This document shows, piece by piece, positions 2,406 through 18,301 of a stretch of 64,000 bases of DNA. Source of the DNA: Oscillospiraceae bacterium (lineage in GTDB: Bacteria > Bacillota > Clostridia > Oscillospirales > Oscillospiraceae). Made by a program: the position numbers and the translations under genes. The notes below the pieces were generated by a model. That model was given only the letters and a program-made list of their open reading frames with translations. It did no database searches and was not told where the DNA came from. How positions within the stretch are numbered: the stretch's first letter is position 1; the number at the start of each line of letters is the position of its first letter. The stretch covers positions 61,426 through 125,425 of the forward strand of contig WQWL01000002.1 of assembly GCA_009785345.1 (NCBI GenBank), given 5' to 3'.

Positions 2406-4343
2406 TCAACGTATAGGGTCAGCATAATAATCCCTCGGAACAAATGTCCAATTCTCGCGGTTGTTTGCATCACCTACAATTTCCCAAACTCCGTAATCGC
2501 CTTCTATCAATGCGTGTGGCTCATTATGCCTCTTACCTAAAACGTACATAATCCTCGCCTGAGGTGGGGGAACCACACCATTTATTATGTCAAAATATGA
2601 TATACCATAACCTTCACGCAACACTCCAGCAGCCTCTAATATGCTTGCTTGAAAGTTTATATGTGAAAGCTCGGTCGTAGTGTCTACTGTAATAGACCCG
2701 ATTGAGTTTTTCGGTTTTATAAATAAACTTACTGTATCCGGTATCTGCTCTCTTAACCCATGGTCGCCGGTAATAATAATTGTAGTATTGTCGTAAACAC
2801 CTATTTCTTTCATTTCATTAAAGAAAAAGTTCAACGTCTCAAAGTTTGCTCTTACTACATCTGTGCGAGATCCGCCCTGCCATATTTCACCGCTCTCTTC
2901 ATCAAAGTGAAATCCGTTAGAGCCCGGATCATTTCTATCCCCATTAGCGTGAGGTCCGTTTAGAAATATAAATGTAAAAACACTTTCTTCACTGCTTACA
3001 GAAAACTCAGCTTGGGTTATGAATCTATGAAACCGCATGTCTGAGTGTATTCCGACAACAGGAATGAAAACTGCGTCCTCATTTTCAACTTCTATATAAA
3101 AGAAGTGACTACCAAAGTCCGGAGCAATCGTTGAAAGCCACGTGTTTTTTAATACATACGGCGATAATCTGCCAAGTGAAAGGCGCGTAGTTGTTGACAG
3201 AAGTGGTCTTATATTCGCGCCCACTCGTTCAGGCATCCTCATGTTATCAGCTCTATGCTCAATTTGTTCGTTTTCACTAAAAGCACTTATTAGGCAGAGG
3301 TAGAGGTTTGTCCTAAATCCATTGTCTCTCAGAGTGTCAATAAACCCATGCTGTGCCCACGCTTCCGGCTTGTACTCCGGAGCATGTACCCAGGGTCCTT
3401 CCTTATGATGTCCGGTTAACATTGATACCAGAGATGGAATCGTGCCAAAATGTTGAGCAACATTATTTTCATACAATGTAAAGCCATCCAAGTAATCCCA
3501 CAAATGCGGGTACGCTTCAAACGTATGTCTTATGACTCTAACATCCAACGTATCAAGAACAAAAACAAGCACGTTGTTTTCTTGATTAAACTCTACAGCT
3601 GCGTCATATGTAAAATACACGGGATTTTGATCATATCCTTCCGGCAAATCTGTCGTTGCTGTTGTTGATATCAGCCCGACTATCTGCATTCCTGAAATAA
3701 TCACCAAAGACAGAACAAATGCTTTTTCATATCGAAAATGTTTTTTCTTCACTTTAAACAACAGCCAAATACATAGCGGTGCAACTATAATTACAAACCA
3801 TATCAGAGCATTAATGATATTGCTAAATGTAAGCACACCATACTCCGTTTGTTGTCCCATTATGGCCACCATGTTGCCGTTCAGGAACAGGGTTTGAATG
3901 TATGCAGCAACAAGCACACCCCACATGCCCAAAATTACAACTGTCAAAGCTTCTTCCTTAAGAAGCCTCAACAGTAGCACCCATACAACTATCGCCGCAA
4001 CAACTGCTCCGAGCATATATAGAAACATAGCCGAAAACAGCACAAAAACAAATCTTGCAGCAATGATCATCACCCCGACAACTGCGAGGGTAATTACACC
4101 TGCTATCGTTTTTTTGTGGAAAATTAAAGTAAGAACAATAGATATTGCGATAAAGCATAGCAAAAAAGCAACCAACAAAGGCGGCAACAAAAATCTCCAA
4201 CTAACCACAAAATCGGTAGGATTGTTCAGATACATATCCAATGGTGTATATAAGAAAAGTGTAAATGCAGAAGCAAATGATATTGCCAATATCGATGCTG
4301 TTTTTCTTTTTGGCGGAAGTATTGCTTTTAGTTTATCAGACAT
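2406..4343 (-). CDS. LTA-synthase-like (sulfatase-fold) membrane phosphotransferase, copy 1
   Basis: A 645-residue protein with about five to six N-terminal membrane segments (residues ~15-235) and an extracellular alkaline-phosphatase/sulfatase-fold domain. Metal and nucleophile motifs are visible: VLDTLD, the nucleophile Thr in HFGTIPS (as in LtaS GTxPS) and ITGDHG. Known relatives transfer glycerol-phosphate or other phospho-alcohols from a lipid to a glycan outside the cell (LtaS; GacH of the Group A carbohydrate locus). Placed at the end of a rhamnose-polysaccharide operon, it probably decorates or links that glycan. AGGAGG seven bases before the ATG fixes the start. The next gene upstream is a full-length paralogue. 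Confidence 0.78.
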   Translation of the reverse strand: MSDKLKAILPPKRKTASILAISFASAFTLFLYTPLDMYLNNPTDFVVSWRFLLPPLLVAFLLCFIAISIVLTLIFHKKTIAGVITLAVVGVMIIAARFVFVLFSAMFLYMLGAVVAAIVVWVLLLRLLKEEALTVVILGMWGVLVAAYIQTLFLNGNMVAIMGQQTEYGVLTFSNIINALIWFVIIVAPLCIWLLFKVKKKHFRYEKAFVLSLVIISGMQIVGLISTTATTDLPEGYDQNPVYFTYDAAVEFNQENNVLVFVLDTLDVRVIRHTFEAYPHLWDYLDGFTLYENNVAQHFGTIPSLVSMLTGHHKEGPWVHAPEYKPEAWAQHGFIDTLRDNGFRTNLYLCLISAFSENEQIEHRADNMRMPERVGANIRPLLSTTTRLSLGRLSPYVLKNTWLSTIAPDFGSHFFYIEVENEDAVFIPVVGIHSDMRFHRFITQAEFSVSSEESVFTFIFLNGPHANGDRNDPGSNGFHFDEESGEIWQGGSRTDVVRANFETLNFFFNEMKEIGVYDNTTIIITGDHGLREQIPDTVSLFIKPKNSIGSITVDTTTELSHINFQASILEAAGVLREGYGISYFDIINGVVPPPQARIMYVLGKRHNEPHALIEGDYGVWEIVGDANNRENWTFVPRDYYADPIR

Positions 4344-4446: not shown

Positions 4447-6366
4447 TTAATCAATACTAGGAATAAACGTCCAATTTTCTCTCACATTGGCATCACCGAT
4501 AATTTCCCAAATCCCATAATCACCATATGCTCGTGCCATCGGCGCAGTCCAAGCCCCGACAACATGCATCACCCGCACTGGTGGCGCAAGAGCTATGCCA
4601 TTTATTATATCAAAGTATGATATGCCATACTCCGTATGCGGTATTCCTGCAGCTTCCAATATTCCTGCTGGGAAATATGTATGTGAAAGCTCCGTCGTGG
4701 TATCCGTCACAAGAGGTCCGGTCGAGCCTTGCGGCTTTATAAACAAACTTACTGTCTCTGGTAGCTCATATCTTCTGCCATGATCACCGGTTATTATTAT
4801 CGTGCTGTTGTCGAACACCCCTGCTTCTCTCATCATATTGAAATATATATTTAGCTTTTCAAAACTTGCTCTTGTAACATCCCACCGGCTGCCACCGTGC
4901 CTGATTTCTCCTGTTTCTTCGTCGAAATGATAACCGTATGAGTGCGGATCATTGATATCTCCGTGGGCATGTGCCGAATTAAAGTGCATCATGATAAAAA
5001 CATTCTGCTCACTATCCGCAGACACTTCACTCTGTCTCAGGAAGTTATGAAAACGTATATCTGATTCGATCCCGACTATCGGGATGTACGCAGAAACCGG
5101 ATCTCCGACAACCATTGTAAAGAATGCTGCTCCAAATGCTGGCTCAATAGCCGCAAGCCAGGTGTTTTTCAACACATATGGTGATAATCTACCAAGGGAA
5201 AGACGTGTTGTCATAAATAGAAATGGTCTAAGATTAAGATTAAACTCATCAGCTCTTATTAAATTATCCGTTCTATCACTTATTAAGCCGTATCTTTCGA
5301 ACGTAGATGGCAAGTCCAGATAAAGACTTGTGGTAAATCCATTTTTCCTTAGTGTATCAATAAAATTGTGATACGCCCATGCTTCTTCTCTATATTCGGT
5401 GCCACCAATATCCGGACGTATTTGTCGCTGTGTTACCATAGAAACCATTGAAGGTATGGTGTCAAAATGTTCTGCAACATTGTTCTCATATAGTGTAAAC
5501 CCGTCAAGATAGTCTTTTATGTGCGGGAAATATCCAAACGTAGCTCTCATTACCTGGACATCAAGAGAATCCAGAACGAACACAATTATGTTGTTTTCTG
5601 CGTTTAAAGTCGTCGTATCTTCGTAAGTAAAATATACAGGATTTTGATCAAACCCCTCCGGCAAATCTGTCGTAACAGCCGTTGATACCATGCCCGTGAT
5701 TTGCATTCCGGAGATAATCACTAACGATAGCACAGTCGCTTTTTCAAATCTAAACTCTTTCTTTTTCATCCTAAACAGGAACCAAATGCACAGTGGTGCA
5801 AGTACAATTACGACCCATATCAAAATGTTAATGATATTTCCAAACGTAAAATCGCTATACTCTGTCTGTTGCCCCATTATAGCTACCATGTTGCCGTTTA
5901 GGAACAATGTTTGAATATATGCTGCAATAATCACACCCCATATGCTCAGTATTACAACAGTCAAAGCTTCTTCTTTAAGAATTTTTAACAACAATACCCA
6001 TCCAACTATCGCCAAAACAATTACTCCGAGCATATATAGAAATGCGACAGAAAACAGCATAAACGCAAATCTTGCAACTATAATCATTACTCCACACAAT
6101 GCAAGAGCAATCACACCTGCCATGATTTTCCTATGCCAAATCACAATTAGTACAGCAGATAGTACAAGAAAACATAACAAAAATACACCCAGCAAAGGTG
6201 GCAATATAAATCTCCAGCTGACTACAAAGTCTGATGGATTATTCAGATACATATCCAGCGGTGTATAGAAAAATAACGTGAACGCAGACGCAAAAGATAT
6301 TGACAATATCGCTGCGAGTTGCCGCTTAGGCGGTAATATTGATTTTTGTTTACTCATATTAGTCAT
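4447..6366 (-). CDS. LTA-synthase-like (sulfatase-fold) membrane phosphotransferase, copy 2
   Basis: A paralogue of the neighbouring gene with the same architecture: N-terminal membrane segments, then VLDSLD, the nucleophile block HFDTIPSMVSM and ITGDHG. Long identical stretches (for example SFASAFTLF, LFLNGNMVAIMGQQTEY) point to tandem duplication. The track start at 6384 is a TTG. ATG 6366 (MTNMSKQ) or ATG 6357 (MSKQKSILPPKR, which aligns with copy 1) is more likely; no strong Shine-Dalgarno decides between them. The proposed role is extracellular transfer of a phospho-polyol group to the rhamnose glycan, with different acceptor or donor choice from copy 1 as the likely reason for keeping both. 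Confidence 0.77.
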   Translation of the reverse strand: MTNMSKQKSILPPKRQLAAILSISFASAFTLFFYTPLDMYLNNPSDFVVSWRFILPPLLGVFLLCFLVLSAVLIVIWHRKIMAGVIALALCGVMIIVARFAFMLFSVAFLYMLGVIVLAIVGWVLLLKILKEEALTVVILSIWGVIIAAYIQTLFLNGNMVAIMGQQTEYSDFTFGNIINILIWVVIVLAPLCIWFLFRMKKKEFRFEKATVLSLVIISGMQITGMVSTAVTTDLPEGFDQNPVYFTYEDTTTLNAENNIIVFVLDSLDVQVMRATFGYFPHIKDYLDGFTLYENNVAEHFDTIPSMVSMVTQRQIRPDIGGTEYREEAWAYHNFIDTLRKNGFTTSLYLDLPSTFERYGLISDRTDNLIRADEFNLNLRPFLFMTTRLSLGRLSPYVLKNTWLAAIEPAFGAAFFTMVVGDPVSAYIPIVGIESDIRFHNFLRQSEVSADSEQNVFIMMHFNSAHAHGDINDPHSYGYHFDEETGEIRHGGSRWDVTRASFEKLNIYFNMMREAGVFDNSTIIITGDHGRRYELPETVSLFIKPQGSTGPLVTDTTTELSHTYFPAGILEAAGIPHTEYGISYFDIINGIALAPPVRVMHVVGAWTAPMARAYGDYGIWEIIGDANVRENWTFIPSID

Positions 6367-6396
6367 AATGTATTTTTCTTTCAAATTGTAAATAAA

Positions 6397-7650
6397 TCAT
6401 TCAAACAGCTCTCGTTTCTTCTTCAAACACCAAAACAGGCGAATTAGCAGACATAGCACTATAATACCTTGACTCAAATTCATAACATGATTTGCGCCGA
6501 TTATTCCAAATGTGTTGATAAAGATACCGGTCGTTGCAAAACAAATTGCCAGACCAATTAAGTTACCGAAGAACAATCCTTTTATATCTCGAATAGTAGA
6601 AAACACGAGACTAAAGAACCATAATAATGGGATTAATCCCCCAGCTATCGCGGCACCCGGCATTAAGTATGCATATGGTCTTATTGACTCGTCAAAAATT
6701 AGGCTTAAACCCCATTCTCCCAAAAAATACGAAGCCACTGCAAAAACAAGTGTAATCCCTACAATGACTGCAAATAGTACCAAAAATATTTTCACAAAAT
6801 CAGTCTTATTCTTTTCTTTCAGCTTATTTGCCATAACCTTCATCATAGGTGTGCATAGCATAGTAACACAGATTTGTATAACAACCAATGGTGTGATTAC
6901 TATTTGATATGCACCTATGGCTTCTGTTCCGAGTATTCTTTCTATAGAAACTCTTGCAAATGTAGGTATAGCAATACCCATTGCTCCAACAATCATTAGT
7001 GGAAAACAGCGCTTCAATAGTGAAATCATTTTTTTTGCTGAGAATACCGTTGATTCAATTAACTTTTTTGTCCGAGGTATGTCATACAGAATTCCAACAA
7101 GCGTCGTAACGACCGCCATGCCTATAATCGCAGGTAATAAGTCAATTAGCCATACAAATATAACAAAAACTGTAAGCATTAGAATTCCGCGAATTGCAAG
7201 CGAAATCCCGGCGTATTCCATCTTCCAGTGCTTCTGGTCTATTCCGTGAAGTACATCAATAAACGACTCGTTAGCACGAAAAACCATATAACATATAATA
7301 ATCATTCTCTGCATGAAGGTAAAGTCAACGATAAAAACAAAGGCTGCACAAATTATAATAGAGCTTACGCATGTTATAACACGTGTGAATATATACTCTC
7401 TGTCAGTGTACTCATCATTTATATCCGAGACCTGAAATGCCCTGACATTATACAGCGCAATCGCCGTAAATAAATTGGTGATGTTCAGTGCGAGCGCTAA
7501 ATTCCCAACATTTTCACGATCATCAGATAGCCAAGCAATGACAAATGTCAGCATCCCTTGACATGCAAAGTATGTTATCATGCCAGCAGAGTTCCATATA
7601 GAATTTTTTACGAGTTTGTTTTGCATACTTAGTTCTTTTTGACCTTGCAT
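6397..7650 (-). CDS. Wzx/GacK-like polysaccharide flippase
   Basis: A 417-residue polytopic membrane protein of the MATE/MOP exporter superfamily (about twelve segments; N-terminus NKLVKNSIWNSAG is typical of Wzx-type proteins). It would move undecaprenyl-linked glycan or an undecaprenyl-phosphate sugar across the membrane. The start is supported by GAAGGTAGGAG upstream of ATG. It lies between a radical SAM gene and the phosphotransferase pair in the same operon direction. No ABC-type polysaccharide exporter and no obvious Wzy polymerase is visible in the locus, so this is the only candidate export step. Confidence 0.72.
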   Translation of the reverse strand: MQGQKELSMQNKLVKNSIWNSAGMITYFACQGMLTFVIAWLSDDRENVGNLALALNITNLFTAIALYNVRAFQVSDINDEYTDREYIFTRVITCVSSIIICAAFVFIVDFTFMQRMIIICYMVFRANESFIDVLHGIDQKHWKMEYAGISLAIRGILMLTVFVIFVWLIDLLPAIIGMAVVTTLVGILYDIPRTKKLIESTVFSAKKMISLLKRCFPLMIVGAMGIAIPTFARVSIERILGTEAIGAYQIVITPLVVIQICVTMLCTPMMKVMANKLKEKNKTDFVKIFLVLFAVIVGITLVFAVASYFLGEWGLSLIFDESIRPYAYLMPGAAIAGGLIPLLWFFSLVFSTIRDIKGLFFGNLIGLAICFATTGIFINTFGIIGANHVMNLSQGIIVLCLLIRLFWCLKKKRELFE

Positions 7651-7689: not shown

Positions 7690-9135
7690 TTATGATTTTG
7701 ATAATACTCTCTTTATCAACATCATTCCGGACTTCATGCTTCGCCAACCTTCAGCCGGATCACGAAAAGCTTGTCCCAGTTTCATTAGTAAATAGCGTGG
7801 ACGTAGATGATAGCGTCGCAGGTTTTTCTCGCAAAGGGCTACCATTTCATCTGCGGTCATGTCATCCATATTTATAACGCAATTATTGCTACCATCCTCT
7901 TTTAGCCATTTTGAATAATCCTCAGTTATAAGATACCCTTTTTCTTTTGCCCACTCATATGCCTCTGTGCCCGGATACACAAATAGGGGATAAAATTGTA
8001 CTGAATCACAGTTTATTTTTGTTGCAAATTGGTAGTTTTCTTCCTGTATACTTCGAGAATCACCGGGGGTACCACACATCATACAGCCGTGAACCATCAA
8101 ACCCGCATGTTTGGCATCTTGAGCAAATTTATGATACTTTTCAACGCTTTGATTTTTATTCATTGAGTCCAACACTTGTTGATTTGCACTTTCAAAGCCT
8201 GCTATCACAAGACGACATCCGGCATCTTTCATGAGCCTCAAAGTCTCAAAATCAACATCTCCGCGCACATTGCAATACCATACCATGCCAACCTTACGTT
8301 CAATCAAAAGTCGACAGATTTCACGGATTCTCTTTGGATTAGCTGTAAAGCAGTCGTCTTCAATAGCAATTTCCTTTACATCCGGAAAATTCTCTTTAAT
8401 ATATTCAAACTCCGCGACAACATTTTCCGGTGAGCGTGCACGGTATCTGCGACTGTGGAATGTTTGTGGATAAACGCAATAAAAACACTGAAACGGACAG
8501 CCCCTGCCTGTAATAATCATTATCATCGGATATTTTGCAGCAGCAAAGAAATAATTCACATGATTTAAATGCTTCTTATACACAGCACTTACAAATGGCA
8601 ACTCATCAAGATTTTCAATTTTCTCTCGTGGCCCAGTACGAACAATTTCATCGCCCTCTCGCAATGCAAGCCCATGAACATCTGCCGCTGAACCTTTATT
8701 TTCAAGCACACTCGCTAAATCTCTTATTGTGTAATCATATTCACCAATTGCTATAGCATCTAAGGAGTCCGACAACTTCATGGTTTCTTCCGGCAATGCT
8801 GATGGGTGAGTGCCTACTAATATTGTGTAGCACTCAGGAAGCTCTTTTTTTATTGCATCGGCTACTTCTACATCATTATATATCGATGCTGTGCTTGTAT
8901 CTACCACTACCAACTCCGCCTCAAATTGGCGCAGCTTTTCGATGGTTTCTTGCAAAGAAAGGTCATCAGCAGGTGCATCAAGTAATATAACATCATGTCC
9001 AGCTTCATCTGCTACCCCGGTAGCATAGGCAAGCCAAAACGGATAATATATTGTACCTCCACTGGTTATAGCAGGGCTTCGTGAAGTTCTGGAAAAACGA
9101 CCTTTAAATGGCGGATTTACGAATGCGATTTTCAT
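7690..9135 (-). CDS. B12-binding domain radical SAM protein
   Basis: A 481-residue protein with an N-terminal cobalamin-binding Rossmann-like domain (residues ~1-140) and a radical SAM TIM-barrel with the cluster motif CPFQCFYC. The C-terminal extension (RRYHLRPRYLLMKLGQ) is seen in radical SAM proteins from surface-polysaccharide clusters. Class B enzymes of this type perform methylations or ring rearrangements on unactivated carbons; the substrate here is unknown, probably a sugar or lipid carrier of the surrounding locus. The ATG is preceded by AAAGGAATGGCC, a leader motif that also occurs before other genes in this window. Confidence 0.75.
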   Translation of the reverse strand: MKIAFVNPPFKGRFSRTSRSPAITSGGTIYYPFWLAYATGVADEAGHDVILLDAPADDLSLQETIEKLRQFEAELVVVDTSTASIYNDVEVADAIKKELPECYTILVGTHPSALPEETMKLSDSLDAIAIGEYDYTIRDLASVLENKGSAADVHGLALREGDEIVRTGPREKIENLDELPFVSAVYKKHLNHVNYFFAAAKYPMIMIITGRGCPFQCFYCVYPQTFHSRRYRARSPENVVAEFEYIKENFPDVKEIAIEDDCFTANPKRIREICRLLIERKVGMVWYCNVRGDVDFETLRLMKDAGCRLVIAGFESANQQVLDSMNKNQSVEKYHKFAQDAKHAGLMVHGCMMCGTPGDSRSIQEENYQFATKINCDSVQFYPLFVYPGTEAYEWAKEKGYLITEDYSKWLKEDGSNNCVINMDDMTADEMVALCEKNLRRYHLRPRYLLMKLGQAFRDPAEGWRSMKSGMMLIKRVLSKS

Positions 9136-9168: not shown

Positions 9169-10197
9169 TTAAAACTTGACATCCTTTCGAGTAATCTTGC
9201 GATATAATCCATATAATAACAGAAAAAGACTAAATGAGCGAATTCTATATAAAAAAAGGCATGCCCATATTGCTAACCCTCTTACACCACGGTCACACAA
9301 CGAGCTAAATTTCAGTAGTCTACTTTTTTTGAACATTGCAAAGTTCTTTGAAAAATAGTAGCGTGTCCAAGAAGCGTGTTCGCCTGCATTTATATCAGGA
9401 TTATCTTTTGCTCTGATTGCCATAGATAGTCCAATATGCAAAAACGCAGCTAATTCAACAGTATCGTTGATCCTCAATTCAGAGGTTTCATCATGCAGCT
9501 TCACAAACTCTGCTGCAAATGCGTGAATATCTGCAAGCTTTGTGTTCGAAATTACAGAAGAGCTGTGTATTTGATAATGAATCAGCACCTGGTTTGTAAA
9601 TCTTATGCCACTACATTTTGCATACAAGCGCAGGAGAAAACAAACCTCTTCGCCTACACTAAACTTTGAAAAGCGAATGTCCTCAATAAGAGCGGTTCGA
9701 ATTATTTTATTCCACGCTGAAGTATTGATAAATGCAAGGATATTACTTTCATATGGTTTCTCTATAACTTCCGGAAACCCCTGCATTTCAACGCATTGAA
9801 TATCTCCCGTTTTATATTCAACTCTATCATACGCACAAACTGCAATATCTGTGTTTGGCTTTTGAACCATAGCGTATAGTATTTCAAGATATTCCGGCTC
9901 GACCGAATCATCACCATCTAAGAAGACTATGAATTCACCATCTATCTTACCGGAGTCAAGCGCAAAATTCCTTGTAAGTCCCGGCATTCCTAGATTTTCT
10001 TCCAAAAAAATCCCAACTATTCTATCGGAAAACTGTGCCATATATTCCCTTACGATATCTACAGTGCTGTCCTCAGAGCAGTCATCTATCACAAGTATAT
10101 TGAAATCTTGAAAGGTCTGTGCAAACAGCTCATCTAGGCTCTTTGCAATAAATTTTTCCAAATTATATGTGGTGATAACAACAGTAATTTTAGGCAT
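9169..10197 (-). CDS. GT2 family glycosyltransferase
   Basis: A 342-residue GT-A fold enzyme: PKITVVITTYNLEKF at the N-terminus, VIDDCSEDST, and the DxD-type FLDGDDSVEPEYL. The C-terminal ~60 residues are basic and hydrophobic (LFLYRIRSFSLFLLLYGLY), likely a membrane-associated helix. It differs from the two shorter GT2 proteins upstream, which are dolichol-phosphate-mannose-synthase-like. Its ATG overlaps the stop of the preceding DUF2304 gene by 8 bp (ATGCCTAA), so the two are coupled. It probably adds one sugar of the repeat unit on the cytoplasmic side; donor unknown. Confidence 0.75.
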   Translation of the reverse strand: MPKITVVITTYNLEKFIAKSLDELFAQTFQDFNILVIDDCSEDSTVDIVREYMAQFSDRIVGIFLEENLGMPGLTRNFALDSGKIDGEFIVFLDGDDSVEPEYLEILYAMVQKPNTDIAVCAYDRVEYKTGDIQCVEMQGFPEVIEKPYESNILAFINTSAWNKIIRTALIEDIRFSKFSVGEEVCFLLRLYAKCSGIRFTNQVLIHYQIHSSSVISNTKLADIHAFAAEFVKLHDETSELRINDTVELAAFLHIGLSMAIRAKDNPDINAGEHASWTRYYFSKNFAMFKKSRLLKFSSLCDRGVRGLAIWACLFLYRIRSFSLFLLLYGLYRKITRKDVKF

Positions 10198-10618
10198 CTA
10201 TGCTCTCCTCAAAGACAGCTTGCTCTGCTATGTCATTTTTGCCTTTGCCTTTAGTTTCAGTGTTAACCTTTTCTCTGAGGTCTCTCAGCTCTTTTTCATA
10301 CACTGCGTTAAGCTGGATGAGTTCAATAATTCTCTCGTTAAGTTTGTGCGTCGCTGCACTTTGTCTGTATATTAAAAAGAATACAAGAATGAAAAGTAAC
10401 GCGAATATCAATGCAGGTGGGTAGTCTACGCCAACCAGATGGGCAAGTCTATCGACATAATCCATATATAGCGGGGATAGAATCATTATGAATGCAGCAA
10501 TAGCCCATATAATGCTTTCTTTTTCCGAGAATTTGTTTTTTATGACATGCCTTATAAAAACGACAAGCGTTATTACTCCAATCACAACAAATGGCATATA
10601 TCGCAAGTTATATAACAT
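10190..10618 (-). CDS. DUF2304 (GacJ-like) small membrane protein, copy B
   Basis: A 142-residue protein with three predicted membrane segments (starts at ~10, ~37 and ~65) followed by a charged, likely coiled-coil tail (HKLNERIIELIQLNAVYEKELRDL). This is the DUF2304 pattern. The characterised member GacJ binds the GT2 enzyme GacI and stimulates undecaprenyl-phosphate-GlcNAc synthesis. Here it overlaps the preceding DPM-like GT2 gene by 11 bp, so the GacI/GacJ pairing is conserved. A second DUF2304 copy lies 0.7 kb upstream. Confidence 0.75.
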   Translation of the reverse strand: MLYNLRYMPFVVIGVITLVVFIRHVIKNKFSEKESIIWAIAAFIMILSPLYMDYVDRLAHLVGVDYPPALIFALLFILVFFLIYRQSAATHKLNERIIELIQLNAVYEKELRDLREKVNTETKGKGKNDIAEQAVFEESIDA

Positions 10619-11339
10619 TATTAGGTCTCCTTACAAATATTCCGATTATAAATATTATCAACAGACTGTATATGTTTTTAATTACATATTTTATAGGTTT
10701 TACAATACCCGCATGCATACTAACCCCATCCGTGCGTTCTTTCATGATACACGACACTTCTTCCACTTTATATCCAAATAACAGCATTTTTGCAATTAGA
10801 TTTGCATCAGGAAACTCTGGATACTGCCCCGGCTGTGAGTATTTTTCTATGGTTTTTCTATCTAAGATTTGTAATCCGGATGTCGGATCTGTAATTTTCT
10901 TTTTTGTAATAATTTTTATGAGAAACGCAAATAACTTTGTCCCAAGTCTCCTAAAGAAGGAATGCTTGTATTCTGTTTTTTCTAAAAATCGTGAACCTAT
11001 TACAATATTGGCTCCGGATGTTTTTATCATATCATACAATTTATGTGCTTCACTCGCCAAGTGCTGTCCATCTCCGTCGAATTGTATTACATAATCGTAG
11101 TCATTTCTCTTTGCATACTTTATACCGGTTTGCACTGCCCCGGAATATCCCAAGTTAACCGGATGGTCTAAATAGCCAACATCAAGTTTTTTTAATGCAC
11201 CAAGCGTATTATCTTTTGAACAATCATTAACAACGATGATATCTGCGTCTTTGAAGTTTGCTCTGATATCATTAACAGGCCTGGATATATTGTATTCTTC
11301 GTTATATGCAGGAATCACAAATAGTACTCTATCATTCAT
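10608..11339 (-). CDS. DPM-like GT2, undecaprenyl-phosphate sugar synthase candidate (GacI-like), copy B
   Basis: A 243-residue GT2 protein with FVIPAYNEEYN, VVNDCSKDNT and the DGDGQH donor/metal motif of dolichol-phosphate-mannose-synthase-like enzymes. A hydrophobic C-terminal stretch (YSLLIIFIIGIFV) could be a membrane anchor. It overlaps both flanking DUF2304 genes (8 and 11 bp). By analogy with GacI it should load a sugar on undecaprenyl phosphate for use outside the membrane by a GT-C enzyme. The sugar cannot be read from the sequence. Confidence 0.75.
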   Translation of the reverse strand: MNDRVLFVIPAYNEEYNISRPVNDIRANFKDADIIVVNDCSKDNTLGALKKLDVGYLDHPVNLGYSGAVQTGIKYAKRNDYDYVIQFDGDGQHLASEAHKLYDMIKTSGANIVIGSRFLEKTEYKHSFFRRLGTKLFAFLIKIITKKKITDPTSGLQILDRKTIEKYSQPGQYPEFPDANLIAKMLLFGYKVEEVSCIMKERTDGVSMHAGIVKPIKYVIKNIYSLLIIFIIGIFVRRPNNVI

Positions 11340-11706
11340 CGCAGCTCTCCCTGCTCAATTTATTGCTGTTTTTATCTGACTCGCGCTTCGCTATTGCAAT
11401 ATTCTGTGTAAGTTTATTCAGTCTGTCAGATAAACGAGATACAACAATCGTCAGACCGATGCATACACAAGTCAAAAAAGCAATACATATTAAAAATAGA
11501 GTAAATACCGGTGTAGCTATTCCAAGCAAAGATGATAACATATCTAAGAGTTGTGGAAACACCGCAAAAATCGTAACGCCCAGCAATGCAAATATCCAGA
11601 TTAGACAGTACTTCAACTCCATTTTTTGCTTACGTAGCATACTAATAAAGAAAAAAAGCATAGCGACAGTAATAATCGCCATTATTATTCGCAACTCAAT
11701 AAGCAT
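11332..11706 (-). CDS. DUF2304 (GacJ-like) small membrane protein, copy A
   Basis: A 124-residue protein with three membrane segments and a charged C-terminal helix (RLSDRLNKLTQNIAIAKRES). It shares organisation and motif spacing with the other DUF2304 gene of the locus (KYCLIWIFALLG versus KESIIWAIAAFI). It follows the first DPM-like GT2 by 10 bp and overlaps the second by 8 bp. It is probably the membrane partner of one or both GT2 enzymes. Confidence 0.74.
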   Translation of the reverse strand: MLIELRIIMAIITVAMLFFFISMLRKQKMELKYCLIWIFALLGVTIFAVFPQLLDMLSSLLGIATPVFTLFLICIAFLTCVCIGLTIVVSRLSDRLNKLTQNIAIAKRESDKNSNKLSRESCDE

Positions 11707-11716
11707 TATACTTCTC

Positions 11717-12418
11717 CTAATCTGTTATTTTTACTCTCATTGTTGAGCTGATTATTATTCCAAGAGATACTTTAATCATATAGTAAATGGGCTGCAATGC
11801 TTTGATTGATGACACACCGCCTTGCCGCTCACGCATTGTAACAGGAACCTCACAAACTCGCAACTTATTGCTTATCGCTAACATATTACTTTCCGGTTCA
11901 GGATAGTCCTTTGCATAATTTTTCTCAAAAAGCTGCATTACTCCGCGATTTGCTGCCCTAAACCCGCTTGTTGCGTCTGTTATACGCTTTCCACTGAGAC
12001 AATATATTAGAAATTTGAAGAACTTTATTCCAGCACGTCGCATAGCTGATGACTGAAACCCGACTTTATCAAGATATCTTGAGCCAATAACTAAGTCTGC
12101 CGTTCCCTGCTCGATTGGAGCAACTATTTTATGCACTTGCCCGGGATCGTGTTGACCATCACCATCAAGTTGCACAGCTATATCATAGTTGTTTTGCAGT
12201 GCATAACGATACCCGGTTTGCACTGCGCCACCAATTCCTAAGTTCAATGGCAAATCAATGTGCGGAATATTCTCATCTCGCAATATCGCTCTGCTATCAT
12301 CAGTGCTACAGTCATTGATAACAACCACATCATATGATGTTTTTTCACGTATCTCATCATATAGTGTTGTGATTGTTTCTTGTTCATTGTAGCACGGTAT
12401 TATTATGAGTGTTTTCAA
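11717..12418 (-). CDS. DPM-like GT2, undecaprenyl-phosphate sugar synthase candidate (GacI-like), copy A
   Basis: A 233-residue GT2 enzyme with IIPCYNEQETI, VINDCSTDDS, LDGDGQHDPGQ and ITDATSGFRA, all typical of DPM-like polyprenyl-phosphate glycosyltransferases and close in size to GacI. It pairs with the DUF2304 gene 10 bp downstream. Long similarity to copy B (NLGIGGAVQTGYRYA versus NLGYSGAVQTGIKYA) shows a duplicated GT2-DUF2304 cassette. Its likely product is a polyprenyl-phosphate sugar used by the GT-C-like protein encoded just upstream. Confidence 0.76.
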   Translation of the reverse strand: MKTLIIIPCYNEQETITTLYDEIREKTSYDVVVINDCSTDDSRAILRDENIPHIDLPLNLGIGGAVQTGYRYALQNNYDIAVQLDGDGQHDPGQVHKIVAPIEQGTADLVIGSRYLDKVGFQSSAMRRAGIKFFKFLIYCLSGKRITDATSGFRAANRGVMQLFEKNYAKDYPEPESNMLAISNKLRVCEVPVTMRERQGGVSSIKALQPIYYMIKVSLGIIISSTMRVKITD

Positions 12419-12452
12419 ATCAGTTCAAACCGCCTGTTCTTATTTCTAGCCC

Positions 12453-14651
12453 CTAGTTTACCACAGAATATATTCTCGAGCCACCCTCGCTATATAATAA
12501 TTCGAAGCTTACAATATCATTGCTATTTAGAGGTTCGGTTGCGTGTATAAACCTCACACCTGCTGTCGCTAGGTCGTGATATGATAACCTTAGCAACATA
12601 TGATCTGCGTGCCACAGCACAAAACTTGTATTATCCATTGTCAGCTCGACAGAGACATGGGCGTATCTATTGTATATGTATTCATATCTGTGTTCCGGAT
12701 CTAACGTGCGCCAAAGTTCAAGGTTTGGATAAAATTGAGTCGAGTTAATAGTTGGTGCACCTGAAGCTATCAAAAATGATGGTCCGTAAAATACATGATC
12801 TAAAGATATCCATCTCTCATTTTTATCCACAGCCAATTCAGAAACTGCAGTATATAATGGTTTGGAGTAAATGGCATCCAATCCTATCATAACAGGATGT
12901 ATGTTTAGCCATGTAATACCCGATATTAGTATTAAATATATACATGCAGCCATATATACCTTTTTATCGTGTAAGAATGTAAAAATGCTGTATAGTGTAA
13001 GTGAAATCCCTACAAATGTAATACCAAAGTAAAGTGTACCTATCGGATAGGTAAATGTTGTTCTACCATAAAACATTGCAATGCCTGTTAAACTCGCACT
13101 TATAACAACAGCGCATATCGCTGCTACTACATTAATTTTCTTGCTAGTCTCGCTTTTTTCTGGAAGCCATGATAACCCGCGTGCAAATAAAAGCACCTGT
13201 GCAAATAATAGGACATCCAATGCGCGACTTGTCGCAGAGAACGAAATTAATGTCACTCGTGCAAGCCAGTCAGGCCATCCCAGAAATACATAGGTACCAA
13301 GCGTAGCCGTATAGGCAATAAGGATAATGCTCAGCAAATCTATTGTTTTCTTTTTTATCATTACAAATATCGCGAATAACAATGGTACAGGAAATAGCGT
13401 AAACATTCCACCAAATTCACTATGGTTTGAATGTGCAAATGCTCTCTCTGAAGATACTGCTCCAAATATACCACCGTTCATCATTCTGTTTGCAAAATCA
13501 CCAAACGCAATACCGCCACCACTCAGATGCCTGGTTCCGGGATAAATCGTGTTTGTTATACCATATATATATTCTCTTGACTCATGAAGATATGTACCTA
13601 CAGTTGCTGCAATCAGAATCACCGTCAAGCCAAGTATACCCCAATCCAGCTTGCCCAGCTTTTTAACCCTGTCCCAATTATCAACTATTATCCATACAGC
13701 TAACCCAAAGTACAAATAGCCCGCCGGCACCTGCCATGCCGGATACAGGTTTGTAATGAACATTGAAAAGAAAATAGTAATGCCTAGCGACAACAGGAGT
13801 CTTTTAATTTTCGTATCAGCTTGCAGGAAGTAGTAAAAACAAACTAAGGCTCCTAGCCCTGCCGGTATAAATATAATATACGACCACCATTGAAAAAGTG
13901 GCGAAAATGTAATCAAGCATGCTCCGACTAATCCAAAGAGACGTTTTTTTCCGGATATAATGTACATAAATTCGAAAGTAACCATAAATGTCATGATTAG
14001 CATGCCGACCCAACGGGCGCTAAATCCGTATTCTACACCAATGAGATAAAAAATGCTCAGGGGAAATGCAAGTGTGGCCAGGTTAAATGTTAATCCAAAC
14101 GGCATATTTTCAGTTGCCGCGCCGCGCGCTATAAAGTTATATCTTCCATATGGCTCCGGGCCATGTTGTGCTGCCAGTTGAATTGGAGTTGTTACCGCCC
14201 ATTCGTCAGAACGTATAGCATTTGGATTACCAAAAATAGGCATCGTCAGTTCTGTTCCATATCCCGGTTGAATATGAAATGCATACATTCCAACTGACGA
14301 GAAGTGAACCCGTCCTATAACCAACAACAAAAACAATATTACAGCAAATGCATAGCGGTATTTAAACAAGAAATTATAGAAAACCCTGATATTCACAATA
14401 AAATGTATAATAAAAAATAATATTGGAAAAAATACGAATATTGACCTGTACATACTTCTAAGTGTATAGCTCTCAATAATATAAGCAAAATTCACTCCGG
14501 CAAGCCTGCCGCCCAATACAATAGAAACCAGCGTTTCTGCGGTAAGAGCCGCCACAAACGAGCATAGCACAACAATGACAATGCTCAATATTTTATGGTT
14601 TTTAAATCTTAACATATCCGAAAAGCCATCTTTGATATTTTCAAGTTTCAT
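12453..14651 (-). CDS. Large polytopic membrane protein, GT-C-like glycosyltransferase (GacL-like role)
   Basis: A 732-residue protein with about 12-14 membrane segments and a short periplasmic-type C-terminal domain. An extracellular loop after the third segment carries AIRSDEWAV, a motif I associate with large membrane proteins of surface-glycan clusters. The topology fits GT-C transferases that use polyprenyl-phosphate sugars. Position directly before two GacI/GacJ-like pairs suggests it transfers those sugars to the rhamnose backbone, as GacL does. The ribosome binding site (GAGGATTAGTAT) lies in the end of a MITE-like inverted repeat abutting the start. Polymerase or YfhO-like functions are alternatives. 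Confidence 0.62.
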   Translation of the reverse strand: MKLENIKDGFSDMLRFKNHKILSIVIVVLCSFVAALTAETLVSIVLGGRLAGVNFAYIIESYTLRSMYRSIFVFFPILFFIIHFIVNIRVFYNFLFKYRYAFAVILFLLLVIGRVHFSSVGMYAFHIQPGYGTELTMPIFGNPNAIRSDEWAVTTPIQLAAQHGPEPYGRYNFIARGAATENMPFGLTFNLATLAFPLSIFYLIGVEYGFSARWVGMLIMTFMVTFEFMYIISGKKRLFGLVGACLITFSPLFQWWSYIIFIPAGLGALVCFYYFLQADTKIKRLLLSLGITIFFSMFITNLYPAWQVPAGYLYFGLAVWIIVDNWDRVKKLGKLDWGILGLTVILIAATVGTYLHESREYIYGITNTIYPGTRHLSGGGIAFGDFANRMMNGGIFGAVSSERAFAHSNHSEFGGMFTLFPVPLLFAIFVMIKKKTIDLLSIILIAYTATLGTYVFLGWPDWLARVTLISFSATSRALDVLLFAQVLLFARGLSWLPEKSETSKKINVVAAICAVVISASLTGIAMFYGRTTFTYPIGTLYFGITFVGISLTLYSIFTFLHDKKVYMAACIYLILISGITWLNIHPVMIGLDAIYSKPLYTAVSELAVDKNERWISLDHVFYGPSFLIASGAPTINSTQFYPNLELWRTLDPEHRYEYIYNRYAHVSVELTMDNTSFVLWHADHMLLRLSYHDLATAGVRFIHATEPLNSNDIVSFELLYSEGGSRIYSVVN

Positions 14652-14848: not shown

Positions 14849-15679
14849 CTATTTCAAGTACCTCTCCAACGCATCTTGCCATGTTGGTAATCGCTTGAAC
14901 CCTGCATTATCTATGTTAGCTTTAGACAAACGCGAATTTTTCGGTCGTGCCGCCTTCGTTGGGTATTGCTCTGTTGTTATAGAGTTCACTTTGCAGTTGT
15001 TGCCACTTTGCCTCATTATCTCTGTAGCAAAATCCGCCCAAGAGCAGAAGCCTTCGTTTGTCGCGTGATATTCACCATATTTCCCTGAACACACTATGCC
15101 GCAAAGCAAAACTGCCAAATCAGGAGTATATGTCGGACTACCAACTTGATCACCCACCACATTCAACTCATCTCTAGATTCAGCAAGCCGCAGCATCGTC
15201 TTAACGAAATTATTGCCATAATGACCAAACACCCATGAAATTCTGACAATGTAATACCTCTCTAAATGCTTTAGCACCGCCTCTTCACCGGCAAGCTTAC
15301 TCTTGCCATAAACAGAAATAGGACCTTTAGGCGCGTTTTCCTCATAGGGCAAATCACCCAAACCATCAAAAACATAATCAGTGCTGATATATATCATCTC
15401 TGCATCTATCTCACGACACGCTTTTGCTATGTTCTCAGTACCTTCGGCATTAACCTGGAAACAAAGTTCAGGCTCATCCTCAGCCTGATCAACCGCAGTA
15501 TACGCAGCACAATGAATAACACTACTTGGATTTAGCTTTTTTATATAAGCACTAACTGCAACTGCATCGGTAATATCAAGGTCAGCAATATCAATACCCG
15601 CATGTGCAATATTACGTTTTTTCAATTCCAAAACAACATCTGAACCAAGCTGCCCCGCAGCGCCTGTTACTAGAATCAT
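14849..15679 (-). CDS. rfbD: dTDP-4-dehydrorhamnose reductase
   Basis: This is the last step of dTDP-L-rhamnose synthesis, an NAD(P)H-dependent reduction of dTDP-4-dehydro-L-rhamnose. The extended SDR signatures are present: VTGAAGQLG at the N-terminus, STDYVFDG, and the catalytic YGKSK. The length of 276 residues is normal. AGGAG seven bases before the ATG supports the start. It follows rfbB after a 26-bp gap filled with a G-run repeat. With rfbA, rfbC and rfbB it forms a complete four-enzyme pathway. Confidence 0.95.
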   Translation of the reverse strand: MILVTGAAGQLGSDVVLELKKRNIAHAGIDIADLDITDAVAVSAYIKKLNPSSVIHCAAYTAVDQAEDEPELCFQVNAEGTENIAKACREIDAEMIYISTDYVFDGLGDLPYEENAPKGPISVYGKSKLAGEEAVLKHLERYYIVRISWVFGHYGNNFVKTMLRLAESRDELNVVGDQVGSPTYTPDLAVLLCGIVCSGKYGEYHATNEGFCSWADFATEIMRQSGNNCKVNSITTEQYPTKAARPKNSRLSKANIDNAGFKRLPTWQDALERYLK

Positions 15680-15699
15680 GTAATAACTCCTATCGTCGT

Positions 15700-15728
15700 T
15701 AGGGGCTAGGGGTTAGGGTATACCCTAT
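15700..15728. repeat. G-run / ACCCTA-type short repeat, copy at rfbB-rfbD junction
   Basis: TAGGGGCTAGGGGTTAGGGTATACCCTAT. It encodes the last residues and stop codon of rfbB (DRVYPNP then TAG). Similar tracts occur at 17291-17370, 12447-12457 and 33379-33390. Confidence 0.6.
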
Positions 15729-16740
15729 CACTATACATCTTCTCATAGTACTTCTGATACTCACCATCGAGCACATTTTGCCACCAGGCTTTATTTTCTT
15801 TGTACCATTCAATCGTCAAACTAAGTCCATCTTCAAACTTAGTCTCAGGCAACCAACCGAGCTCTCTGTTTATCTTAGTTGGATCAATACCATAACGCAT
15901 ATCATGACCCGGGCGATCTGTCACATAGCTGATCAAAGACTCAGGCTTACCAAGTTGATGCAAAATCGTTTTAACAACCTCTATATTCGTTCTTTCATTA
16001 TGTCCACCAATATTGTAGACCTCGCCGATTGTCCCATTACGAATAATTAGATTTATTGCACGACAATGATCAATTACGAACAACCAGTCACGAACATTTT
16101 CACCTTTCCCATAAACCGGTAATGACTTATCTTGCATTGCATTAATGAGCATTAGCGGAATTAATTTCTCAGGAAAATGATATGGACCATAACAGTTGCT
16201 GCATCGTGAAATTGTTATTGGCATTTTATAGGTACGAGCATAGGCTTGACAAAGTAAATCTGCGCCTGCTTTTGAAGCTGAATATGGACTTGAAGTGTGT
16301 ATAGGCGTTTCTTCAGTAAAAAGTAAATCCGGTCTGTCAAGGGGCAAATCACCATAGACTTCATCCGTTGATACCTGATGATATCTCTTGACATCAAACT
16401 CTCTAGAAGCATCTAACAACACCTGTGTGCCCAAAATATTGGTTGTGAGGAAGATTCCAGGATTATCAATACTTCTGTCAACATGACTCTCAGCAGCAAA
16501 GTTTACAACAACGTCCGGGCGATGCTTTTCAAAAATTTTCCTTATTGCAGGCACATCTGAAATATCTGCCTTTTCAAAATGAAAGTTTTTATTATCCATT
16601 ACGGTCGCAAGTGTTTCCATGTTTCCGGCATATGTCAGTGCATCCACACAGATTATTGTATCTTCCGGATGATTTTGCAATGTGTCATGAATAAAATTGC
16701 CACCAATAAACCCAGCTCCACCTGTTACTAGTATTTTCAT
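15706..16740 (-). CDS. rfbB: dTDP-glucose 4,6-dehydratase
   Basis: Converts dTDP-glucose to dTDP-4-dehydro-6-deoxyglucose with bound NAD. Extended SDR features: ILVTGGAGFIGGNF, HVDRSIDNP, and the catalytic SPYSASKAGAD. The full length is 344 residues. Its ATG overlaps the rfbC stop (ATGA) and is preceded by AAAGGAG. The extreme C-terminus (RVYPNP) is encoded by an intergenic-type G/C-run repeat, so the ancestral stop was probably a few codons earlier. Confidence 0.95.
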   Translation of the reverse strand: MKILVTGGAGFIGGNFIHDTLQNHPEDTIICVDALTYAGNMETLATVMDNKNFHFEKADISDVPAIRKIFEKHRPDVVVNFAAESHVDRSIDNPGIFLTTNILGTQVLLDASREFDVKRYHQVSTDEVYGDLPLDRPDLLFTEETPIHTSSPYSASKAGADLLCQAYARTYKMPITISRCSNCYGPYHFPEKLIPLMLINAMQDKSLPVYGKGENVRDWLFVIDHCRAINLIIRNGTIGEVYNIGGHNERTNIEVVKTILHQLGKPESLISYVTDRPGHDMRYGIDPTKINRELGWLPETKFEDGLSLTIEWYKENKAWWQNVLDGEYQKYYEKMYSDRVYPNP

Positions 16741-17270
16741 AGTCGAATCTCCTTTAATAATGGTGCAGTACTGTCTTTTTCAGAAACTATCGGGCTCTCT
16801 ACGCCCCAAAAAATATTGATCTCCGGGTCTGACCAGTGTATTGCCGCATCATGCTCAGGACTATAGTAGTTATCAGCTTTATATAGAACCTCAACATCAT
16901 CAGTCAATGTAATGAATGCATGACCAAAACCACGTGGAATATATATCTGCTTCTTGTTCTCCTCCGACAACTCAACACCCACCCACTGCTTAAATGTGTC
17001 ACTATTCGGACGTAAATCAACGGCAAAATCCATAATCGCACCTCTTGTACAGCGCAATAACTTCGCCTGTGCCATAGGAGATCTCTGAAAATGAATCCCG
17101 CGTATAGTACCTTTTTGTGCAGAATATGAATGATTATCCTGTACAAACTGCGTGTCAATTTCCGGCATTTTTTTCTTGCTGTATGTCTCCATAAACCAAC
17201 CACGAGCATCACCAAACACCTGAGGATCAATAATTAAAACCTCATCAAGCTTAGTCTTCGTTACATTCAT
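16737..17270 (-). CDS. rfbC: dTDP-4-dehydrorhamnose 3,5-epimerase
   Basis: Cupin-fold epimerase of dTDP-L-rhamnose synthesis. Motifs: RGIHFQRSPMAQAKLLRC (active-site His), and YIPRGFGHAFITL. The track starts at 17330, but the first 20 residues (TTPYPLAPRKRD) are read from a CCCCCTA repeat. The conventional start is MNVTKTKLDEV at 17270, giving 177 residues, the family length; AAGGGATTATTGGAAT precedes it. It overlaps rfbB by 4 bp. Confidence 0.92.
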   Translation of the reverse strand: MNVTKTKLDEVLIIDPQVFGDARGWFMETYSKKKMPEIDTQFVQDNHSYSAQKGTIRGIHFQRSPMAQAKLLRCTRGAIMDFAVDLRPNSDTFKQWVGVELSEENKKQIYIPRGFGHAFITLTDDVEVLYKADNYYSPEHDAAIHWSDPEINIFWGVESPIVSEKDSTAPLLKEIRL

Positions 17271-17290
17271 ATTCCAATAATCCCTTTTCC

Positions 17291-17370
17291 TAGGGGCTAG
17301 GGGGTAGGGGGTAGTATCTTTTGAAGACATAAATACAAAATCGCTACTATACCCTATACCCTATACCCTA
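17291..17370. repeat. Paired G-run and C-run short repeats between rfbA and rfbC
   Basis: TAGGGGCTAGGGGGTAGGGG followed by GTAG, then 33 bp later CTATACCCTATACCCTATAC ending in CCTA. The two halves are of opposite G/C strand bias and the second is a three-unit 7-bp tandem repeat (ATACCCT). They could pair partly in RNA or form G-quadruplex DNA. Confidence 0.55.
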
Positions 17371-17371
17371 A

Positions 17372-18247
17372 TTATTTTATTTTTCCGCTGATTACTTTCA
17401 TAAGATACTCGCCATAAGGTGATTTTCCATAACCCTCTGCAAGCTTTATAAGCTGGTTAAGATCAATGAATCCCATACGATAAGCAATTTCTTCGACTGC
17501 AGATATTTTAATACTCTGTCTTTTTTCTACAGCCATTATGAAGTTTGACGCATCCATAAGGCTATCAATTGTACCTGTATCAAGCCATGCAAAACCACGC
17601 CCAAGAGTAGTGACCTCTAATGTTCCATCTTCAAGGTAAATGCGATTAAGGTCGGTTATCTCAAGTTCGCCTCTTGCACTGGGTTTGAGATTCTTTGCAT
17701 ACTCAACACATTTGTTATCATAAAAATACAGACCTGTAACAGCATAGTTTGACTTCGGCACATTCGGCTTTTCCTCAAGGCTTATTGCATGACCATCCCT
17801 ATCAAACTCGACAACCCCAAATCTTTCAGGATCATCAACATAATAACCAAAGACAGTTGCACCCTTTTCTTTCGTCGCTGCCTTTTGCAACATACTAGAA
17901 AAACCATTGCCATAAAAAATGTTGTCTCCAAGAACCATGGCACAGGCATCGTCGCCTATAAATTCTTCTCCAAGAATAAAAGCTTGTGCCAAACCATCAG
18001 GAGAAGGCTGAACCTTGTATGAAAGGCTCAGTCCAAGATCATTTCCATCACCTAGCAATCTTTCAAAATTAGGCAAATCCTCCGGTGTGGATATTATTAG
18101 TATTTCTTTGATTCCTGCCAACATTAAAGTTGATAGTGGATAAAAAATCATGGGTTTATCATATACACACAACAATTGCTTACTCGTGACACGTGTAAGC
18201 GGATAAAGCCTTGTTCCCGCTCCTCCTGCCAGAATTATACCTTTCAT
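17372..18247 (-). CDS. rfbA: Glucose-1-phosphate thymidylyltransferase
   Basis: First step of dTDP-L-rhamnose synthesis, dTTP + glucose-1-P to dTDP-glucose. Visible motifs are [46 protein letters not shown] and FAWLDTGT. The track start at 18274 adds [23 protein letters not shown] places the true ATG at 18247, giving 291 residues, the family length. It is the first of the four rfb genes in transcription order. A weak promoter-like sequence lies just upstream. Confidence 0.95.
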
Positions 18248-18272
18248 ATATGCACTCCTTTTATGTATTGAC

Positions 18273-18301
18273 ATTATCTATTATATTTCTTTTAAAAACA
18301 A
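18273..18301 (-). promoter_or_regulatory. Possible promoter for rfbACBD
   Basis: On the minus strand TTGTTT, 17 bp, GATAAT in an AT-rich gap between the upstream GT2 gene and rfbA. The rest of the locus has few gaps, so this could add an internal start. The boxes are only fair matches. Confidence 0.35.

Follow-up and report, generated by a model that had tools for sequence, protein, structure and literature searches.

The closest described relatives of the locus considered here are wall-polysaccharide loci of streptococci and lactococci. In the GacI/GacJ/GacK/GacL system of Streptococcus pyogenes, a GT2 synthase and a small DUF2304-type membrane protein occur with a Wzx-type flippase, a GT-C transferase, a GacH-like gene and a rhamnose polysaccharide cluster (PMC8035078, PMC8327497). 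All of these have counterparts in the present locus, the GT-C transferase in the form of candidates, although the streptococcal system has one synthase pair and this one has two of different type, and the GT-C candidates here belong to DUF7657 and DUF2142 and not to PMT_2 as in the group A carbohydrate locus. Likewise, WpsA/WpsB of Lactococcus and ScbA/ScbB of S. thermophilus pair a GT2 with a small membrane protein in a rhamnan/side-chain cluster that includes Wzx and DUF2142 proteins, as here, but with one priming pair per locus in those reports rather than two types in tandem (PMC10821137, PMC9746298, PMC12599335). Side-chain primases of reduced identity (37-45%) in S. thermophilus go with GalNAc, not GlcNAc (PMC9746298). 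A plasmid-borne rhamnan locus of Streptococcus suis (NZ_CP135066.1) similarly carries RgpF, a Wzx-like protein, a DUF2142 protein, an LTA synthase family protein, and a GT2 of the type termed A below with a DUF2304 protein, but it has one pair only, and the annotation of the part that was read shows no DUF7657 gene.

Two synthases within one rhamnan locus are already known from the serotype c carbohydrate of S. mutans, where SccN/SccM and SccP/SccQ comprise two synthases, each with its own GT-C, against two synthases and two GT-C candidates here, and where SccN gives rise to beta- and SccP to alpha-Glc-P-Und, both from UDP-Glc (PMC11754754). In the present locus, unlike that of S. mutans, both synthases are GacI-like, have DUF2304 partners, and stand in tandem; this tandem of GacIJ-type pairs is new.

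A tandem of predicted synthase pairs in a rhamnan-type cluster

The window is the whole stretch of DNA that was analysed, 64,000 nt in length, and coordinates are positions within it. Its host is an uncultured gut-type bacterium. The block lies on the minus strand, with pair A at 11332-12418 and pair B at 10190-11339, and reads in the following order:

12453..14651, minus strand: candidate GT-C-like polytopic transferase, 732 aa, DUF7657 (97-491) and DUF7654 (594-731); Pfam E=3.5e-80 and 3.1e-36
11717..12418, minus strand: GT2-A, 233 aa, predicted polyisoprenyl-phosphate sugar synthase of the GacI/WpsA kind (A type); PF00535, 5mlz, A clade
11332..11706, minus strand: DUF2304-A, 124 aa, GacJ/WpsB-like small membrane protein, 3 predicted TM; PF10066 E=3.2e-25
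10608..11339, minus strand: GT2-B, 243 aa, predicted polyisoprenyl-phosphate sugar synthase of a second type; PF00535, 5mlz, B clade
10190..10618, minus strand: DUF2304-B, 142 aa, GacJ/WpsB-like small membrane protein, 3 predicted TM; PF10066 E=4.5e-20
9169..10197, minus strand: GT2-C, 342 aa, TuaG-like GT2; PF00535 E=3e-28, NCBIfam TuaG 82 bits, below cut-off

Each DPM-like GT2 gene is directly upstream of its own DUF2304 gene (junction +10 bp in A, -11 bp in B), and the third GT2 is of the ordinary TuaG type and not DPM-like. The four junctions from GT2-A to GT2-C measure +10, -8, -11 and -8 bp, giving three overlaps of 8-11 bp; gene order and distances thus agree with the alternation of GT2 and DUF2304 genes, overlapping at three of four junctions, that a sequence-only reading of this DNA had described. 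The overlaps themselves are no special sign: in a set of 129 GT2-DUF2304 pairs, the two genes overlap or abut in 56%. What stands out is the doubling, for among the 89 sampled genomes with DUF2304 just 2 have such genes in tandem, both in the host genus (this genome and that of a sister species, G002).

The same strand holds further genes of a wall-polysaccharide cluster that extends past the window edge:

2406..4343, minus strand: LtaS/GacH-like protein, copy 2; PF00884 E=2.5e-10
4447..6384, minus strand: LtaS/GacH-like sulfatase-fold membrane protein, copy 1, candidate glycerol-phosphate transferase; PF00884 E=2.6e-7
6397..7650, minus strand: Wzx-type flippase, candidate exporter of lipid-linked sugar(s); PF01943 E=1.7e-10
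7690..9135, minus strand: B12-binding radical SAM enzyme, HpnJ-like; TIGR03471 375 bits against a cut-off of 577.6
14849..18274, minus strand: rmlD, rmlB, rmlC, rmlA (dTDP-L-rhamnose supply); translations, rml order in G002, G006 and G009
18337-19245 and 19416-20252, minus strand: two GT2 genes; Pfam
20386-21738, minus strand: Bac_transf priming transferase; Pfam

An RgpF-family enzyme is encoded just outside the window (C2:53172-55061; E=1.5e-170, 503/503 model positions) and also in the sister species. Together with rmlABCD in the window it identifies a rhamnan-type (Rgp/Gac) locus, and the rhamnose-glycan setting that had been proposed is thereby supported. In its RgpF, rml, Wzx and LtaS-like genes the cluster resembles the streptococcal rhamnan locus described above, which has a lone pair of the A type. 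On reading C2:5001-84000 no Wzm/Wzt-type or RgpC/RgpD ABC exporter was noticed, and the backbone pathway is consequently incomplete as described.

Two distinct types of predicted synthase

Both enzymes match Glycos_transf_2 in Pfam (1e-24 for GT2-A, listed first, and 7e-25 for GT2-B) and the DPMS structure 5mlz in the PDB (E=1e-11 and 3e-9, respectively). The DxDxQ motif is DGDGQH in each, and both retain the GSR and TSG motifs and an arginine aligned with the conserved DPMS arginine. GT2-A begins at a TTG codon, and its orthologue in the sister species starts at the same place. Despite these likenesses the two are 40% identical, fall into separate deep clades (SH-aLRT 99), which rules out a recent tandem duplication, and are distinguished by fixed type differences (I62/Y65, R154/Q157, E174/D178, S204-I205/M208-H209), GT2-B carrying the signatures YPEFPDAN and GxSMH. 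With the S. suis rhamnan-locus GT2, rather than S. pyogenes GacI, as the streptococcal reference for assignment to the GacI/WpsA kind, identity is 50% for GT2-A and 41% for GT2-B, and most type residues of the S. suis enzyme are present in GT2-A and not in GT2-B.

The small membrane proteins are divided in the same way. DUF2304-A and DUF2304-B are 28% identical; against their counterparts in the sister species they score 148 bits (A with A) and 162 bits (B with B), with cross matches of 26-30; and of 116 pairs that were typed, 104 have a DUF2304 subtype matching the type of their GT2. These comparisons support the prediction that the four genes encode two distinct GacI/GacJ-type synthase pairs. 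Given the deep clades, the fixed motif differences and the separate DUF2304 partners, it is plausible that A and B differ in the lipid-linked sugar that they make. The type residues may also serve as a means of sorting GacI-like enzymes that have no assigned sugar.

Inheritance across the genus

Pair A is inherited within the genus. The relatives of pair B are scattered, and within the genus only the one sister species shares it, so B was probably acquired, judging from this distribution. Both pairs are intact in the two species, with GT2 identities of 77% (A) and 71% (B), in the order listed, and low dN against saturated dS. Two close relatives, G006 and G008, have one pair only, and in a third, G009, the second pair is located elsewhere; these three genomes represent the state before, and the present genome (G000) and its sister the state after, the addition of a second pair. 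B is followed in the sister species by genes for three other proteins: a GHMP kinase, a fusion of nucleotidyltransferase and HAD, and a SIS isomerase.

Candidate GT-C transferases

The DUF7657 protein has about 15 hydrophobic segments and a conserved R147-x-D149-E150-W151 sequence in the loop that follows the TM segments at the N-terminus, in which D149 is invariant and E150 present in 16/17 homologues; this loop would presumably be extracytoplasmic. The top 15 PDB matches of its AF2 model are all GT-C proteins (OST, DPY19, ArnT, PglB), at E>=0.009 and TM-scores of 0.2-0.3, for a low-confidence model (pLDDT 46) built on only 5 sequences. Its profile matched no PDB sequence and had no useful match to the DUF2142 profile (33.7% probability over 59 columns), and no homologues were found in viral contigs.

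The large polytopic neighbour had been described as a single GT-C-like protein, and although it does show GT-C hallmarks it is not single. The search for a second GT-C gene that had been suggested turned up a candidate: a DUF2142 protein of the same cluster, encoded 13.5 kb farther downstream than the pairs and beyond the window edge. Both families are also present in the cluster of the sister species. A lone GT-C candidate for two pairs is thus ruled out. One further PMT_2 protein is encoded elsewhere in the genome, beyond the cluster. For the DUF2142 orthologue of the sister species, the model (pLDDT 70) has ALG12 as its top match (E=0.16, probability 0.98), with Pmt4 and AftA among unrelated matches; the DUF2142 profile found nothing relevant among PDB sequences. 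A search of congeners found DUF2142 and DUF7657 solely in genomes with DUF2304. The DUF2142 tree gave no link of subtype with pair type, one genus clade neighbouring A and A and B neighbours being mixed elsewhere. Since there are two GT-C candidates even in the one-pair genomes G006 and G008, the presence of two pairs does not imply a one-to-one division.

Proposed mechanism and alternatives

The reading that we favour, and consider rather probable, is that two GacI/GacJ-type synthases, A resident and B acquired, supply a rhamnose-type wall polysaccharide through two GT-C-like transferases. Each GT2, anchored to the membrane through its DUF2304 partner, would load undecaprenyl phosphate with a sugar taken from a nucleotide donor, A being the resident pair of the genus beside which the acquired B now lies. 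The two lipid-linked products may carry different sugars, or the same sugar in different forms. They would be flipped probably by the Wzx-type protein, in a role like that of GacK or WpsG; extension before flipping, if any, might fall to GT2-C, which adjoins B and would then act in a WpsC-like role. The DUF7657 and DUF2142 proteins would then transfer the sugars to the polysaccharide. If the products do differ, nature has provided in the tandem block a compact experiment on adding a second wall-polymer decoration, one that also bears on whether GT-C transferases are specific for their donors.

Among cluster genes, pair B is the only set exclusive to the two B-holding genomes, and the cluster comparison shows no new GT-C common to both that accompanies it. 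B may thus have been inserted without a transferase of its own, a resident GT-C now accepting, or being re-assigned to, the new lipid-linked sugar; we put this forward as a tentative possibility. If true, this would document how the decoration of a wall polysaccharide can come by an additional sugar through uptake of the donor synthase alone. The arrival of B without a common GT-C would also suit a single transferase with two donors, whereby the lipid sugars made by A and by B would alike go to the DUF7657 protein or to a different resident GT-C, and in the window the pairs do directly follow the DUF7657 gene. That adjacency is not conserved, as the A+B block of the sister species follows DUF2142 and not DUF7657, and DUF7657 comes after rmlD in both species; with a second GT-C candidate in the cluster of both, one transferase for both pairs is not supported as originally stated, and we regard it as unlikely.

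Equally doubtful is that one or both pairs make only the first sugar of an oligosaccharide that GT2-C extends before flipping and attachment. Such priming is the known mode of WpsA/WpsB (PMC10821137) and ScbA/ScbB (PMC9746298); GT2-C overlaps DUF2304-B by 8 bp, and the cluster holds a Wzx and a DUF2142 protein, the latter like WpsI/WpsJ (PMC12599335). Yet GT2-C is only 24-29% identical to anything in related clusters and hence has no fixed tie to A or to B, and in the sister species the three genes named above, not GT2-C, come after B. Use of the same nucleotide sugar by both pairs, with a difference in anomer, acceptor or regulation, has a precedent in SccN and SccP, which share UDP-Glc (PMC11754754), but GT2-A and GT2-B belong to the same DPM-like group with the same catalytic motifs, which does not suggest opposite anomers, and we hold it to be improbable. 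That B is a redundant copy, or a duplicate in decay, and does nothing of its own is scarcely credible, as no point in its favour was found and B is intact, kept in two species, provided with its own DUF2304, and of a different clade from A.

Elsewhere in the cluster, the two LtaS/GacH-like copies are 65.5% identical to one another, and the radical SAM enzyme has orthologues of 77% identity in G002 and 69% in G009.

Two putative synthase types side by side

In the window (C2:61426-125425 of the genome under study, G000), gene order, junctions and Pfam domains agree in describing a doubled GT2/DUF2304 cassette, much as the sequence-only reading had it:

14651-12453, minus: 732-aa membrane protein, DUF7657 + DUF7654 (Pfam)
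12418-11717, minus: GT2-A (Pfam GT2 domain)
11706-11332, minus: DUF2304-A (Pfam DUF2304)
11339-10608, minus: GT2-B (Pfam GT2 domain)
10618-10190, minus: DUF2304-B (Pfam DUF2304)
10197-9169, minus: GT2-C, of the ordinary TuaG-like kind (Pfam GT2 domain)

From the 732-aa protein to GT2-C, gaps of 34 and 10 bp are followed by overlaps of 8, 11 and 8 bp; gene overlap is not remarkable here, as the two genes of a GT2-DUF2304 pair overlap or abut in 56% of 129 cases. Judged by sequence divergence, pairs A and B are two types and not copies of one another. The GT2s are 40% and the DUF2304 proteins 28% identical, and in a tree of 83 GT2s with DUF2304 neighbours the 26-row clade that takes in GT2-B (SH-aLRT 99) is separate from that holding GT2-A. 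GT2-A clusters with congeners (6 rows, support 100) and GT2-B with the sister species G002 (99), within a 17-row clade whose members include Eubacteriaceae, Erysipelotrichaceae, a Cytophagales bin, Paenibacillus and a Saccharibacteria bin, a mixture of lineages that fits horizontal spread of the B type. Between the genome under study (G000) and G002, identity is 77% for GT2-A and 71% for GT2-B, and all four pair genes have dN of 0.16-0.29 with dS saturated.

Type-fixed GT2 positions (A/B numbering) include I62/Y65, R154/Q157 (directly after the TSG motif), E174/D178, E176/N180 and S204-I205/M208-H209, and they sit in motif blocks near residues aligning with dolichol-phosphate-mannose synthase. 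The GT2 of a Streptococcus suis rhamnan locus has the A residues at most of them. A-type GT2s are accompanied by a DUF2304 partner of matching type in 40 of 50 pairs, B-type GT2s in 64 of 66. This divergence, together with the precedent of S. thermophilus, whose primases for GlcNAc and GalNAc share 37-45% identity (PMC9746298), suggests that the two pairs may use different donors.

Rarity of the tandem

The PF10066 search sampled 60 relatives (mostly metagenome bins) and, more widely, 391 genomes from the class and 399 from the phylum, and its counts are those of samples, the genome under study being itself a draft (85.9% complete, 237 contigs). Across these surveys 89 distinct genomes give one match or more above the cut-off; five (G000, G002, G009, G368 and G449) have two or more DUF2304 genes, and only G000 and G002, both of this genus, have them in tandem. 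Among 80 public loci with a B-type GT2, the A+B block occurs in the G002 record only, and in a Bacillales record (L131) about 6.5 kb separate an A pair from a B pair, both of which have a DUF2142 gene of their own close by. Two lipid-linked sugar synthases per rhamnan locus are already known: in S. mutans SccN and SccP each have their own GT-C enzyme (PMC11754754). For streptococci, lactococci and enterococci one GacI/J-type pair is described per locus (PMC8327497), and a tandem of two different such pairs was not found in the part of the literature covered.

Candidate TRANSFERASES and the question of dual specificity

The sequence-only reading saw a single GT-C-like transferase; this holds inside the window, but the same cluster has a second candidate beyond its edge:

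C2:56336-58156, outside the window: DUF2142 membrane protein

The DUF7657 protein matches the expectation for a GT-C enzyme: its hydrophobic segments number about 15, and the loop following the N-terminal ones carries a conserved R-x-D-E-W motif.

Its AF2 model is weak (pLDDT 46, 5 sequences); the 15 top-ranked PDB hits are GT-C proteins without exception (oligosaccharyltransferase, DPY19, ArnT, PglB; E 0.009-0.07, TM 0.2-0.3), which supports the assignment without proving it. DUF2142 proteins of lactococcal and streptococcal loci are treated as WpsJ/WpsI-type enzymes (PMC12599335, PMC9746298), and the modelled G002 orthologue (pLDDT 70) best matches the GT-C enzyme ALG12 (E=0.16). The whole genome has one DUF2142 and one DUF7657 gene, and a PMT_2 protein on another contig. 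A 704-aa polytopic protein at L189:4735-6849 (C2:29735-31849), with about 13 hydrophobic segments, is possibly an unrecognised GT-C enzyme or polymerase; it matches nothing in Pfam and lacks homologues in the related clusters. This protein and a DUF6311 protein of G002 are further candidates not common to both genomes.

G002 has the same parts in a different order (DUF7657 after rmlD, the A+B block after DUF2142); in G009 the rml genes are followed by DUF7657, and DUF2142 immediately precedes the A pair. That the pairs adjoin DUF7657 in the window is thus a local arrangement. G006 has one A pair with two DUF2142 genes and G008 one A pair with both GT-C families, so that the number of GT-C genes (two) is not tied to the number of pairs; the congeners searched that lack DUF2304 have neither family. 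Among all genes of the G000 cluster, only GT2-B and DUF2304-B have clear orthologues exclusive to G000 and G002, which implies that no dedicated transferase common to the two genomes arrived along with the B pair. This would suit one transferase accepting both lipid-linked sugars, as had been proposed; yet GT-C gene number does not track pair number and DUF2142 and DUF7657 are both in the cluster, so dual specificity is not needed.

Beside the observed families, types, neighbourhood and conservation, we infer the enzymatic steps, which would resemble the multi-component transmembrane glycosylation scheme of GacI/J, GacK and GacL (PMC8035078). At the inner face each pair would most likely form a sugar-phosphate-undecaprenol, to be flipped by a Wzx-type protein; a GT-C enzyme would then move the sugar, alone or as the start of a short chain, onto a rhamnose-type polymer, to which LtaS/GacH-like proteins may afterwards add glycerol phosphate.

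Neighbouring genes

The cluster runs past the window edge with YidC-like/CDP-glycerol fusion, DUF2142, GT4, RgpF (PF05045, E=1.5e-170) and GDP-mannose 4,6-dehydratase-type genes.

L059:13181-15088 (C2:58180-60087), ahead of the window's first base by about 1.3-3.2 kb: 635-aa fusion protein joining a YidC-like (60KD_IMP) domain and a CDP-glycerol glycerophosphotransferase-like one
1-931 and 979-2061, with L059:15579-17357, plus: choline-kinase-like ORF and LicB-like transporter
2406-4343 and 4447-6384, minus: two adjacent LtaS/GacH-like sulfatase-fold proteins
7690-9135, minus: HpnJ-like B12-binding radical SAM enzyme (TIGR03471, 375 bits, cut-off 577.6)

The 635-aa fusion has homologues in G002, G009 and G008 (68-77% identity). 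The choline-kinase-like ORF (26-931) forms the final part of a LicC-LicA-like fusion of 592 aa with nucleotidyltransferase and N-terminal HTH domains, and the LicB-like transporter gene that comes after it suggests, with it, phosphocholine decoration. The LtaS/GacH-like copies are 65.5% identical, against a single copy over the part of G002 that was read, and their doubling looks more recent than that of the GT2 pairs. The HpnJ-like enzyme has orthologues in the G002 (77%) and G009 (69%) clusters and was seen in no other locus read; since HpnJ acts on a sugar carried on a hopanoid lipid (PMC12583986), the enzyme here might by analogy act on a lipid-linked sugar.

Right after the B pair of G002 (L060:5699-8690) lie a GHMP kinase, a nucleotidyltransferase-HAD fusion and a SIS isomerase, parts of an activated-heptose pathway, which G000 lacks at that position. 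On the same contig as the window, L190:8517-19665 (C2:13517-24665) holds a GtrA-family protein and a third, GtrB-like membrane GT2, possibly another lipid-linked sugar route, together with NeuB, UDP-GlcNAc 2-epimerase-like and CMP-transferase-like genes of a possible nonulosonic acid pathway.
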